Made by a program: the position numbers and the translations under genes | The notes under the pieces: model-generated | What the model saw: only the letters and a program-made list of their open reading frames with translations | Databases searched by the model: none | Told to the model about the DNA's origin: nothing | In this document: one piece after another, positions 17,182 through 61,030 of the stretch | Position numbering within the stretch: the first letter of the stretch is position 1 | Layout: every line of letters starts with the position of its first letter | Assembly: GCF_004569295.1 (NCBI RefSeq) | Contig: NZ_SPQC01000006.1 | Span: 1 to 64,000 of the forward strand | Source: Rothia nasimurium | GTDB lineage: Bacteria; Actinomycetota; Actinomycetes; Actinomycetales; Micrococcaceae | Reading direction: 5' to 3' | Length of the DNA: 64,000 nucleotides

Positions 17182-17250
17182 CAAGGGGACCTGAAAACCA
17201 AAAAGGGACCGCATAATTTGCGGTCCCTTTTTGAAAATGCGGTCCCCTTG
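17182..17250. terminator. Nested bidirectional terminator upstream of argC
   Basis: An inner hairpin (arms 17200-17213 and 17219-17232, AAAAAGGGACCGCA and its complement) has T runs on both strands. It is enclosed by an outer perfect repeat CAAGGGGACC (17182-17191) and GGTCCCCTTG (17241-17250). It lies 30 bases after the stop of the membrane protein gene and ends that leftward transcript. Confidence 0.85.
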
Positions 17251-56336: not shown

Positions 56337-58289
56337 ATGAAAGACGATCACGTTTTTTACTCTGCCGTGCACCCCCACGAGGGGCAGCGACGCTTTGTCC
56401 TGCGCGGTCTCGACGGCGTACGTGCTATCGCGGTGCTGCTGGTGCTGGTGTACCACTTTTGGCCCCAGTACCTGCCCGGGGGCATGATTGGCGTTGATAT
56501 TTTCTTCGTTATCTCGGGTTATCTGATTACTGCCCTGTTACTGCGCGAGGGTGCCTACACCGGCAAGATGGATATCGTTTCTTTCTGGGTGCGGCGTCTG
56601 CGCCGTCTGGTGCCGGCTTTTGCCCTGCTGACCCTGGTGGTAGGTTCTTTGGCCCTGCTGGTAGGCGGTGATGCCCAGGTCGGTCTGGGCCGCCAGATTC
56701 TCGGCGCTTTTACCTATTCGTCGAACTGGCTGCTGATTTGGGCCGGTAACGACTATTTCACCCAGACCTCTCCTGAGCTCATGACCAATTTCTGGTCGCT
56801 GGCGGTTGAAGAACAGTTCTACCTGTTCTGGCCTGTCGTGATGGTCTTTGTCTTTATGTTTACCGCTAAGTGGTGGCAGCGGGCTCTTGTCCCTGGAGTT
56901 TTGGGTGCCCTGTCGCTGCTGACTGCGGTCGTGCTGGGGCTACTGGGTGCTTCCACCACCCGCCTCTACTACGGAACCGATACCCACCTCTACGGCCTGA
57001 TGCTGGGCGTCCTGCTGGCCATGATGATTCCCTGGTCCATGTACCCGCCTGTTGATGACCGTCTCTACCCCCTGGTCGGCTACGGCAACGGTATCTGGGG
57101 CTGGATGCGCCAGCTGGTCGGCTGGGTGAGCTTGGCTGCCGTCATTCCCTTTGCACTCACCCTTTCAGACCACAGCTCCTGGCTCATGCCCTGGGGCCTG
57201 CTGGTGGGTTCTCTTTTGGGTATGGGCATTATTCAGGCCCTGCTTCCGGACGTCCGCGGCGGCACATCCGAGCTCTTTCGGGGCTTGCTGTCCCTAGCTC
57301 CCCTGCGCTGGATCGGCCAGCGCTCCTACGGCATATACCTCTGGCACTGGCCGCTGATGGTGCTGGCCCACTACACCTTTGGCGCGGCACGCTCCCCCTG
57401 GGTGAACGTCGGCGTGCTGTTCTTAACCCTGATTGTTGCGGGTCTGTCCTACATGTATGTGGAGCAACCCGTGCGTCAGCTGGGCTTCCGAGGGACGCTT
57501 TCAGCCTGGTTCTCAGCCATGGTAGCACCGGCAGGCCGGGCCCTGCCGGTGGGCGTAGCCGTCCTTGCCGGTGTAACCCTAATTGCCACCGTTTTTGCGG
57601 TGCGTACCGCACCTGCCATGACCCAGGCTGAAGCTGTGGTAGCGGCCGGTGCCAACTACATGCAGGCGTCCGCACCGGCGCCCCAGCCGACCACTGCCTC
57701 AGCTGCTCCCAGCTCTTCTGCCAGCCATAGCGCCTCGGCTGCACCGACGGAAAGCGCCAGCCCCTCCCCTACCACCGCACCGTCTGCCGCTGTTGATGGT
57801 TCCCAGGTGACGGTTGTGGGTGACTCGGTCACGCTGGCCTCCTCGATTGCCCTGGGTGAGGCCATGCCCCAGGCCCTGGTCAATGCAGAAGTTTCCCGCA
57901 CCAGCGCAGCTGCCCTGCCCGTTGTGGAGCAGCTAATAGATTCGGGGCAGATGCGTGAGGTACTTGTACTATCGGTAACCGCCAACTCTACTTTCACCGT
58001 TGCCCAGCTAGAACAGCTCAAGGCCTCGGTGTCACCCAACGGGGAGCGCAAGATTGTGCTGGTCACCGGCGTTGGCCCGGCAAACCTGACCTGGATTGAG
58101 CCCTCTAACCAGGTAATTCGCGAGTTCGCAGCGCAGAACCCCGATACGGTCTTTATTGCCGACTGGCAGGCAGCAGCCAAGGGCCACCCCGAGTACCTGG
58201 TCTCCGACGGCGTGCACCCGCAAAACGAGGGCCTGACCATCTACGCCCAGACCGTCAAGGACGCGGTGGCAAAGGCACTGGCGGGATAA
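56337..58289 (+). CDS. Membrane O-acyltransferase fused to an SGNH domain
   Basis: A 650-residue enzyme of the OafA type. The first 420 residues form an acyltransferase-3 domain with about ten membrane segments; the invariant histidine is His40 in VYHFWP. A Ser/Ala/Pro-rich linker (about 440-485) follows, then an extracellular SGNH hydrolase-like domain with GDSV at 495-498 and DGVH at 624-627. Such proteins acetylate peptidoglycan or surface polysaccharides. The linker is encoded by repetitive DNA. It is divergent from dapB. Confidence 0.9.
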   Translation: MKDDHVFYSAVHPHEGQRRFVLRGLDGVRAIAVLLVLVYHFWPQYLPGGMIGVDIFFVISGYLITALLLREGAYTGKMDIVSFWVRRLRRLVPAFALLTLVVGSLALLVGGDAQVGLGRQILGAFTYSSNWLLIWAGNDYFTQTSPELMTNFWSLAVEEQFYLFWPVVMVFVFMFTAKWWQRALVPGVLGALSLLTAVVLGLLGASTTRLYYGTDTHLYGLMLGVLLAMMIPWSMYPPVDDRLYPLVGYGNGIWGWMRQLVGWVSLAAVIPFALTLSDHSSWLMPWGLLVGSLLGMGIIQALLPDVRGGTSELFRGLLSLAPLRWIGQRSYGIYLWHWPLMVLAHYTFGAARSPWVNVGVLFLTLIVAGLSYMYVEQPVRQLGFRGTLSAWFSAMVAPAGRALPVGVAVLAGVTLIATVFAVRTAPAMTQAEAVVAAGANYMQASAPAPQPTTASAAPSSSASHSASAAPTESASPSPTTAPSAAVDGSQVTVVGDSVTLASSIALGEAMPQALVNAEVSRTSAAALPVVEQLIDSGQMREVLVLSVTANSTFTVAQLEQLKASVSPNGERKIVLVTGVGPANLTWIEPSNQVIREFAAQNPDTVFIADWQAAAKGHPEYLVSDGVHPQNEGLTIYAQTVKDAVAKALAG

Positions 58290-58391: not shown

Positions 58392-58447
58392 TTTGTACCA
58401 CCTGCTGCCCAGTTTTACCCCCCAAAGTGGGCAGGGCGCGGTACAAA
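58392..58447. repeat. 56-bp nested inverted repeat, copy 1
   Basis: Outer arms TTTGTACC/GGTACAAA, 5-7 base spacers, inner arms CTGCCCA/TGGGCAG, 16-base centre. Identical in length and about 91 percent identical (5 differences) to the copy at 59573-59628. It lies between the acyltransferase and the end of the AbiEi/DUF559 gene. Confidence 0.9.
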
Positions 58448-58451
58448 GTAG

Positions 58452-59387
58452 CTAGAGCGGCACCCCTCTGTGCAGTTCGAGCATTGCAGCAATTTCACGG
58501 GCTATCTGCTCCGGATGGTTTCTCACCTGCGCCCAGCTATACCGAAGAACAATCCAGCCCTGATTCTGCAGCTGCTTCTCACGTCTGCGCTCTGATATAA
58601 CAGCCCGATCAGTAGGCCCATAGTCCGTGTATTTAATGTGGCCGTCAAACTCAACAATGACCTTCTCATTCTCATACAGAAAATCAGGTCTATAGACCCT
58701 ACCACCAACCACTACATTTACTTGTTGTGCAGGTCTCGGTAGACCACCGTCAATAATTGCAATCAATAGAAGAGTTTCACCGGGGCTTTCACACAGGCTA
58801 CTGAGGTACGGAAGTGTAGCCCGCGCTCGGCGTGCACCTCGCCCTTGAAGTTTCTTCAAACGCTCTTCTACAGCTTCACTCGTTGTAAGTTGCCGGTTCA
58901 AAGCCGAGTTGATAATGCACACCGATTCGCTCAGCTCCAGGTATCTCGCACAGTCATCGAGTGTCTGTAGCAGGCTAGTTGCTCGCACTGTTCCTGATAT
59001 GTATGCGATAGGCACAGAAGGTTTTACAGTGTAATGCTTGATGATTCCTTGAGCGCGGCCTCGGGTATTCGGGCCAGCCAGAATATCGACCAGGTTCTCT
59101 GAAGCAATGACGCTAAGGCCATGGAGCCAGGCAGCGCTCCTGTGGCTGAAGATAGCATCAGGGTTCTGTTTTGCATAGGCAACTATGGCGTAGGGGTATC
59201 GCTCGGCTGGTCGCAGAGAGTTATAGATAGAGCTTGGGCAGAATATGCCGGGACGTAATTGCACGAGCTCGCCGCGGTGCATTTTGCGTGTGATGGTGGA
59301 GTTGCATAGGCCGGCGGCTACAAGTTCGGCACGGGTGGAAACGAAGGTTAGAGGTTCAGCGATCCGCATAGGGTGAGTTTGGCTCAC
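58452..59387 (-). CDS. AbiEi-like N-terminal plus DUF559 (PD-D/ExK-fold) protein
   Basis: A 311-residue protein. The first 60 residues resemble the winged-helix domain of AbiEi-type antitoxins. The C-terminal 110 residues have a restriction-like nuclease core: PDF (Asp235), VEFDG (Glu246, Asp248) and Lys253, as in DUF559 and Vsr-like proteins. It stands alone without a partner AbiEii toxin. Role as a defence nuclease is inference. A GGGTGAG/CTCACCC palindrome covers the start codon region. The DNA is richer in A+T and the gene is bracketed by two 56-bp repeats. A GTG at 59387 or the ATG at 59369 could be the start. Confidence 0.75.
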   Translation of the reverse strand: MSQTHPMRIAEPLTFVSTRAELVAAGLCNSTITRKMHRGELVQLRPGIFCPSSIYNSLRPAERYPYAIVAYAKQNPDAIFSHRSAAWLHGLSVIASENLVDILAGPNTRGRAQGIIKHYTVKPSVPIAYISGTVRATSLLQTLDDCARYLELSESVCIINSALNRQLTTSEAVEERLKKLQGRGARRARATLPYLSSLCESPGETLLLIAIIDGGLPRPAQQVNVVVGGRVYRPDFLYENEKVIVEFDGHIKYTDYGPTDRAVISERRREKQLQNQGWIVLRYSWAQVRNHPEQIAREIAAMLELHRGVPL

Positions 59388-59572
59388 CCAGTCTGAGATT
59401 TTCTACTACTCGGTGTTCTGTGGATAGCAGATAAGAACCTTGTGCCTAGCCAGGGGTCTTTAGGTCGTTCTGTTGGTGCAGCGAAGACACTTTGTTTCGC
59501 CTTCCATCCACAGGAGTTGACAGGCTGTCGTTTACCCGCTTCGAGGGGCCGCCCGCCCTGCTTTCCCCTCAC

Positions 59573-59628
59573 TTTGTACCACGTGCTGCCCAGATTTAGC
59601 CCCAAAAGTGGGCAGGACGCGGTACAAA
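59573..59628. repeat. 56-bp nested inverted repeat, copy 2
   Basis: Same design as the copy at 58392-58447, in the same orientation 1181 bases away. Five substitutions separate them. The outer and inner arms are fully conserved in both copies, the differences lie in spacers and loop. Confidence 0.9.
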
Positions 59629-59662
59629 GCGGCAAGCTTCCCGTAGAGAGCACAAAAAAGAA

Positions 59663-59688
59663 GGACGCCTGCAGTTTTGCAGGCGCCC
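59663..59688 (-). terminator. Terminator of the M16 peptidase gene
   Basis: GGGCGCCTGCA pairs with TGCAGGCGTCC on the minus strand and is followed by TTCTTTTTTG. The stem base again uses the GGACGC word. Confidence 0.9.
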
Positions 59689-59698
59689 TCCCTAAAGT

Positions 59699-61030
59699 TT
59701 ATTTGACGATGGTGGTGACCCACTCCTGGTCTGCCAGGTAGCGGGCCAGGTCGTTGACCTGGTCAGCGGTTACTGATCGAACACCATCGAGCAGCTCATC
59801 AATCGAGAGGAACTTACCCGAGTCCAGTTCTGCCCGGCCCAGGCGGCTCATGCGGGAGCCTGCGTCCTCACTGCCCAGTACGGTGGAGCCGCCCAGCTGC
59901 CCTACGACCTTCTCAAGTTCTTCCTGTGTGATACCATCGCGTACAAACTCGTCGAAGGTAGAGCGCATGAGTTCGGTGACCTGCCCTGCTTTGGCAGGCA
60001 GGCAGCCAGCGTACATGCCGAAGTAGCCGGCGTCTGAATAGGATCCGGTAAAGGAGAAGGTCGAGTAGGCCAGGCCCCGCTTCTCACGGATTTCCTGGAA
60101 GAGGCGGGACGACATTCCCCCGCCCAGGGCGGAGTTGAGCACGCTCATGGCGTAGCGGCGCTCGTCGCCGGCGATGAGGCCGGGGCAGCCCATGACGATG
60201 TTGGTCTGTTCAAAGCCTTTTTCGAGGATTTTTTCGCGAGCACCGGGCACGATATCGCTCTGGTGGCGGACGCGGCGCAGGGCTGGCAGGGCCCCTTCGG
60301 TGAGGTCCCAGCCACGATTGGCTAGGGACTCAAGCACCAGGTTGACGATTTCGGAGTGGTTGAGGCTGCCCGCTGCTGAGATAACCAGGCGGTCGGGGGT
60401 GTAGAACTTTTTGTAGTGTTCCCACACCTTGTCGCGGGCAACGTCGGTGATTTCTTGCGGGGTGCCGCCGATGGGGCGGCCCAGCGGGTTGTTGCCCATG
60501 AGCTGTTCGATGAAGGATTCGAAGGCGACGTCGGTGGGGTCGTCCTGATCCATGGCGATTTCTTCGAGGATGACTCCGCGTTCCTGTTCCAGCAGGGCGG
60601 GGTCGAGCTTGGCACCGGTGACCATGTCGGCGATGACGTCGATAGCCATGGGGGTGTCTTCGTCGAGTACGCGGGCATAGTAGCAGGTGTGTTCTTTGGC
60701 GGTAAGGGCGTTGGATTCGCCGCCTACCCGGTCAAAAGCGTGGGCAATGTCGAGGGCGGTGCGGCTTTCGGTGCCTTTGAAGAGCAGGTGTTCGAGGAAG
60801 TGGGTGGAGCCCAGCATGCCGGGCTGTTCGTCGCGGGAGCCTACCCCTACCCAGAAACCGATGGAGACGCTGCGTTGGGAGGGCATGCATTCGGTGATGA
60901 CGCGGACGCCGCCGGGTAGCACGGAACGGCGCACTTCGTTGCCTCCCCCGCCGGCGTAGATGAGACGGCCGGTGCGGTAGTTGAGCTCGTCGGTGAGGTC
61001 AGCGATTTCAAGGGGTAGAAGGACGGGCAT
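59699..61030 (-). CDS. M16-family (pitrilysin-like) zinc peptidase
   Basis: A 443-residue processing-peptidase homologue. The inverted zinc motif HFLEH is at 77-81 with the third ligand glutamate in ILEEIAMD near 156; RxY-type substrate residues lie in the C-terminal half near GLAYSTFSF. In actinobacteria this gene is a neighbour of dapB and pnp. It is cytoplasmic, without a signal peptide. Its substrate is not known. Confidence 0.9.
   Translation of the reverse strand: MPVLLPLEIADLTDELNYRTGRLIYAGGGGNEVRRSVLPGGVRVITECMPSQRSVSIGFWVGVGSRDEQPGMLGSTHFLEHLLFKGTESRTALDIAHAFDRVGGESNALTAKEHTCYYARVLDEDTPMAIDVIADMVTGAKLDPALLEQERGVILEEIAMDQDDPTDVAFESFIEQLMGNNPLGRPIGGTPQEITDVARDKVWEHYKKFYTPDRLVISAAGSLNHSEIVNLVLESLANRGWDLTEGALPALRRVRHQSDIVPGAREKILEKGFEQTNIVMGCPGLIAGDERRYAMSVLNSALGGGMSSRLFQEIREKRGLAYSTFSFTGSYSDAGYFGMYAGCLPAKAGQVTELMRSTFDEFVRDGITQEELEKVVGQLGGSTVLGSEDAGSRMSRLGRAELDSGKFLSIDELLDGVRSVTADQVNDLARYLADQEWVTTIVK

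Follow-up and report, generated by a model that had tools for sequence, protein, structure and literature searches.

A predicted AbiEi-Vsr-type nuclease gene bracketed by a palindrome of its own in Rothia, as a candidate selfish element with REPtron-like logic

The window analysed here is a 64,000-nucleotide stretch of DNA from Rothia nasimurium (assembly GCF_004569295.1, contig NZ_SPQC01000006.1, positions 1 to 64,000), and its host genome, of the genus Rothia, measures 2.69 Mb. Within it, a 56-bp palindromic element occurs as two direct repeats, at 58392–58447 on the 3' side of a nuclease gene and at 59573–59628 on the 5' side. The first-pass annotation had described two copies of equal length, in one direction and with five differences, enclosing an AbiEi/DUF559 gene. 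Both statements hold at these coordinates, and the enclosed gene is a minus-strand open reading frame (58452–59387) for a 311-residue protein with a DUF559 domain. The similarity of the two copies runs on to 72 bp at 86% identity. A scan of the window with the arm consensus recovered both copies, where 0.05 chance matches are expected, and each copy folds better than 200 of 200 shuffles. From the start codon to the 5' palindrome lies the nuclease upstream region (59388–59572, minus strand), presumed from position only to contain the promoter. The 5' palindrome is followed by the terminator of an M16 peptidase gene, a hairpin with a T-run at 59653–59689 (minus strand) that is distinct from the element. 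The M16 peptidase gene itself (59699–61030, minus strand) is the right neighbour of the cassette, and an acyltransferase gene (56337–58289, plus strand) is its left neighbour. Upstream of argC, at 17182–17250, the window also contains a solitary palindrome of another nuclease-linked type, AAGGGGACC, which gives a long hairpin when folded and shares 91% identity with the left-hand palindrome at locus L163.

The nuclease was modelled with a pLDDT of 87.6 and a pTM of 0.86. Residues 13–196 of the model match the AbiEi antitoxin 6y8q (Z 10.5) and also 1zel (Z 7.5), while residues 201–308 match the catalytic domain of I-Bth0305I, 3r3p (Z 12.0, rmsd 2.4); the match to Vsr, 1cw0, has a Z of 10.0. Four residues of the nuclease half, D235, E246, D248 and K252, are invariant across 16 paralogues. 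Taken together, Pfam, PADLOC and the fold matches indicate AbiEi plus DUF559/Vsr type, and the protein is predicted to consist of an AbiEi-type winged-helix DNA-binding half and a Vsr/I-Bth0305I-type nuclease half. Vsr-type nucleases nick or cut DNA. Proteins of the AbiEi family bind to inverted repeats within the promoters of their own genes (PMC7319586).

The gene is under purifying selection, with a dN/dS of ~0.05–0.15. In most species pairs (the window against L139, L155 and L156), its synonymous divergence is below that of its neighbours, and the clearest case is the pair G013 and G020, with 0.054 for the nuclease versus 0.31–0.67 for the neighbours. Identity between species peaks inside the gene, in its 5' half, and a search for divergence breakpoints at the palindromes found none. 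The low divergence is a hint, and only a hint, that the gene may have been exchanged between species.

At the same locus, the identical arrangement of pair and gene is present in G013, G020 and G047, and in G040, where it is split over contigs. The pair thus brackets the nuclease in five species in all, the R. nasimurium-group genome of the window and four related species. In seven other relatives (G011, G045, G005, G017, G015, G041 and G042), the M16 peptidase gene and the convergent acyltransferase gene adjoin, and gene and element are both absent, so that repeats and gene are present or missing together. It is therefore this acyltransferase gene, and not dapB as the annotation had it, that lies beside M16 where there is no cassette. 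The annotation had also named an outcome that would speak against a cassette, namely the same arrangement conserved in all relatives as ordinary terminators; the pair is absent in those seven relatives, and M16 has its own terminator. Its proposal of a small mobile cassette has gained support, since the repeats track the presence of the gene, bracket it in five species and, at sister loci, occur singly in certain relatives. At the window's own locus, a relative with a single palindrome was sought among the genomes compared and none was found.

Across the genus, the pattern TTTGTACC(N40)GGTACAAA is found 7–11 times per genome in the five genomes with the window nuclease and 1–7 times in five relatives without it; two further genomes, G015 and G039, contain variants of the TTTGTACC element. 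In the genome of the window, about nine sites of this type lie outside the pair. This type is nearly restricted to Rothia and has a length of 56 bp, occasionally 66 bp. About nine of its solitary intergenic sites recur in several species (serB/SDR, uvrA, pheA, rplJ, a DUF808 gene, rpsO, flavohemoprotein/phosphomannomutase, thymidine kinase and M13 peptidase, these gene names being read from the sequence), and its solitary sites lie between convergent, tandem or divergent genes. The outer motif TTTGTACC is nearly invariant, in part since the search pattern required it, and the flanks are unconserved and have no common tag. With respect to the criteria for a transposon or MITE, inverted repeats are present at the window-type element, and no target-site duplication is common to the flanks of its copies, among which there was no recent insertion matched by an exact empty site.

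The annotation had further suggested selection on pairing of the arms, and a folded RNA as one possible identity of the element. For the TTTGTACC type, we reject selection on pairing because the arms of a copy pair with each other at 10.5 of 16 positions, no better than the 10.2 obtained when arms are swapped between copies. A folded RNA is likewise unsupported for this type, and the missing compensatory pairing points to a symmetrical protein site instead. Rfam gave no match at the element; its only matches, a TPP riboswitch and an Actino-pnp element, were elsewhere.

Two variations on the element may be recorded here. G015 has symmetrical, intergenic TTTGTACC arrays of up to six copies, in which the 8-bp motif recurs at intervals of 20–21 bp and the spacers are not complementary (L147 2295–2403, L148 57–165, L149 2364–2451 and L150 2442–2550). 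At the M13 peptidase site (G000:C73:7318-7373 versus G045:C4:2209318-2209373), the two species seem to have the loop of the element in opposite orientations, and an arm shows one paired double change.

AbiEi-like/DUF559 genes are common in actinobacteria, and to our knowledge they have no known function there. The genus Rothia contains many paralogues of the window nuclease, the closest of which occur in Rothia nasimurium, R. nasisuis and Candidatus Rothia avicola; a narrower profile was used to search genome contigs for them, the all-paralogue profile being too divergent. The flanks of the gene share a repeat in 67 of 74 paralogue loci (E <= 1e-3), a set that includes one gene twice (L070 = L161) and a few short matches, and in which L172 counts through a tRNA repeat that lies next to clear palindromes. 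At the same threshold, the flanks match in 15 of 599 random G045 genes (2.5%); at E 1e-5, eight of these genes remain, four of which are themselves members of this nuclease family. In most paralogue loci, the repeat is a palindrome of ~55–70 bp, with one copy 100–260 bp before the start codon and the other at or just past the stop codon, while a few loci have one copy or none. Two-sided palindromes at paralogue loci score far above random genes (p ~1e-32).

Orthologues with more than 70% protein identity have similar palindromes, whereas below this value the palindromes are mostly dissimilar. Over all pairs, the rank correlation between protein and element similarity is weak, because elements cannot be aligned below ~70% identity. 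Since sister nucleases come with their own matching palindromes, the nuclease is, on these comparisons, the likely partner of its flanking palindrome. We conclude that the placing of each nuclease of the family between two copies of a private palindrome is a widespread actinobacterial arrangement and apparently an undescribed one: in the open literature searched, itself only part of the whole, we found no earlier description of DUF559/AbiEi genes with palindromes, inverted repeats or REPs.

Palindromes of the known nuclease-linked types are also dispersed, with 70 sites in the 83% of G045 that was covered, and nearly all of those checked are intergenic. Solitary copies exist for every type tested. 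In G045, there are 2–9 dispersed copies per type; the AAGGGGACC type reaches ~24 sites in G047, and the CCCTATTC type has ~8–12 copies where its nuclease is present and fewer where it is absent. Such numbers, whether the nuclease is present or not, track descent and are no more than suggestive as to cause. Many scattered copies with no link to cargo had been foreseen as an argument against a cassette. The copies are indeed scattered, yet every type is tied to a single nuclease lineage. Further copies flanking other cargo genes, which had been foreseen as support, were not found: in G045, all six of the same-type pairs at the usual cassette distance (~0.8–1.1 kb) enclose a nuclease. A different layout was seen at G045:C4:1045200-1046562, where a truncated DUF559 gene lies between 274-bp direct repeats that are 99.6% identical.

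Gene-less relatives with exactly one repeat, as the annotation had anticipated for a cassette, exist at two sister loci. At the better of the two, a ctaB-linked locus, the gene and two 67-bp palindromes are present in G011, G013 and G047, and G045 (C4:1312480) has no gene and one palindrome. This single palindrome is chimeric, with a left half that resembles the left copy and a right half that resembles the right one, and the flanks on both sides are ~92–94% identical. G000, G002 and G017 carry a different nuclease with a different palindrome at this locus; over the sites compared (L161, L162, L163, L164 and G045:C4:1312480), it holds one of two nucleases, ~50% identical, or a bare palindrome. 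At the second, the 29-kb locus of G045, G020 has the gene with two copies, G045 has one copy and no gene, and G005 has a diverged nuclease with diverged palindromes. These one-palindrome sites imply that the palindrome is the boundary of the cassette, and they are explained equally well by recombination between copies with loss of the gene and by arrival of the gene at a palindrome already in place. Each nuclease family occurs at a single locus among the species compared, and mobility of the gene is therefore low or old.

The layout extends to other genera. On the chromosome of Nocardioides limicola (L332), a nuclease gene is bracketed by a 90-bp palindrome with ~20 copies in the genome; on that of Arthrobacter wenxiniae (L330), the bracketing palindrome has ~8 sites in the genome. 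In both genera, the layout is thus accompanied by dispersed copies, and two Arthrobacter plasmids (L336 and L337) also carry a nuclease gene bracketed by palindromes. The bracketing layout is absent at L331 and L338. In L331 (Arthrobacter psychrochitiniphilus), the flanks of a DUF559 gene failed the paired-repeat test; upstream of this gene, at 1900–2500, are motifs that resemble the GGGGCCAAC palindrome found in L330. One query of viral contigs, for a phage origin, returned no relative.

We propose, with a probability of roughly 0.6, that the window pair and its gene belong to a family of selfish elements, REPtron-like or homing-like, each made up of a nuclease and its cognate palindrome. With AbiEi-family binding of inverted repeats and Vsr-type nicking or cutting as background, we read the data most simply as binding of each protein to its own palindrome, with loss, spread or homogenisation driven by breaks at the palindromes. 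Each AbiEi-Vsr-type protein would recognise the palindrome on either side of its own gene, and these palindromes would serve both as cassette ends and as substrate of the nuclease. The two ends could recombine, perhaps as a result of nuclease action, which would remove the gene and leave one palindrome. Where the nuclease makes a break, repair templated by a copy with the palindrome could lead to the spread or homogenisation of palindromes and gene alike, and solitary palindromes would persist as scattered, slowly evolving intergenic elements. Binding and cutting of the palindromes by the nuclease, and a role of cutting in loss, spread or mobilisation, are what we infer here from genomic arrangement and fold.

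The palindromes could instead be operators, with the AbiEi-like half controlling its own gene, the scattered copies forming a small regulon or decoys, and the nuclease moving nothing. This is unlikely, yet deserves to be weighed. It would be in keeping with the binding of AbiEi-family proteins to inverted repeats in their own promoters (PMC7319586) and with the copy upstream of the nuclease gene, and the window-type motif is what an operator might look like, being conserved, symmetrical and helically spaced (56 or 66 bp) without compensatory pairing; its sites are kept between species, and the dispersed ones are mostly common to several. But operators leave odd the second copy at the stop codon and the solitary copies between convergent genes, one-palindrome and empty sites indicate a cassette boundary, and the nuclease half is conserved.

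We consider it distinctly improbable that the protein is a stand-alone defence nuclease that does not act on the palindromes, the repeats merely permitting loss or exchange by host recombination. PADLOC AbiEi models do match the N-terminal half, plain recombination between repeats fits the chimeric single palindromes, and one locus can hold different nucleases in different species. However, it is hard to explain without mutual contact why palindrome type matches nuclease lineage, other genera have the layout too, with unrelated palindromes, and the window copy has no adjacent defence partner gene. More doubtful still are bidirectional terminators or insulators that isolate or protect an acquired gene and work as RNA hairpins, for although strong hairpins can form, many copies lie at gene ends and, in other paralogues, comparison of left with right copies gives 53 paired double changes versus 23.7 expected, the element has no T-run, the M16 peptidase gene's own terminator adjoins it and some copies lie between divergent genes (which led us to reject ordinary intrinsic terminators), and a terminator has no need for a lineage-specific sequence common to both flanks and distant copies. 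Terminator and folded-RNA readings fit less well than that of a selfish nuclease with its palindrome.

The pairing of nuclease and palindrome accounts for the scattered palindrome set of G045. The linkage also supplies a candidate substrate for AbiEi-like/DUF559 nucleases, accessible to binding and cleavage assays. A broader claim seems to us evenly balanced: that these elements would constitute a new selfish or mobile class in Actinomycetota, in which an AbiEi-Vsr nuclease co-evolves with a private palindrome that it spreads or homogenises and that is left solitary after gene loss, a counterpart of RAYT/REPIN with an unrelated enzyme.

Among known systems, solo LTRs resemble the one-palindrome sites in that a single chimeric repeat remains where the internal gene is missing; here, in contrast, there is no reverse transcription and the repeat is a short palindrome. 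The type IV toxin-antitoxin AbiE shares the AbiEi fold of residues 13–196, in a family that binds inverted repeats (PMC7319586), but the AbiEi-like half is here fused to a nuclease, and the window gene has an acyltransferase and an M16 peptidase as neighbours and no AbiEii (DUF1814) toxin beside it. EDxHD/Vsr-like homing endonucleases such as I-Bth0305I share the catalytic fold, with active-site residues conserved here, and the presence or absence of the gene at a fixed site among relatives. They differ in that the present nuclease has an AbiEi-type first half and that its gene lies in chromosomal intergenic sites rather than in an intron or intein, bracketed by full palindromes with solitary palindromes dispersed. 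In REPtrons, a single-copy enzyme gene is flanked by palindromes whose relatives are scattered between genes, and the palindrome type is specific to the enzyme and co-evolves with it (PMC3733652, PMC8266576). Here too an enzyme gene is flanked by its palindromes and further copies are intergenic. However, the RAYT (TnpA-REP) is a HUH Y1 tyrosine transposase and not an AbiEi-Vsr-type nuclease, REP palindromes carry a GTAG or CGTC tag that the window-type element lacks, and the present palindromes are longer (~55–70 bp, up to 90) and fewer (at most ~24 sites per genome). The nuclease-palindrome element belongs to none of the REPtron, homing endonuclease and AbiE families, and its logic is, by analogy, that of the REPtron. 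If the mechanism holds true, the element would deserve a class of its own, and the comparison suggests that a nuclease-palindrome partnership of the RAYT-REP kind may have arisen again with an unrelated enzyme.
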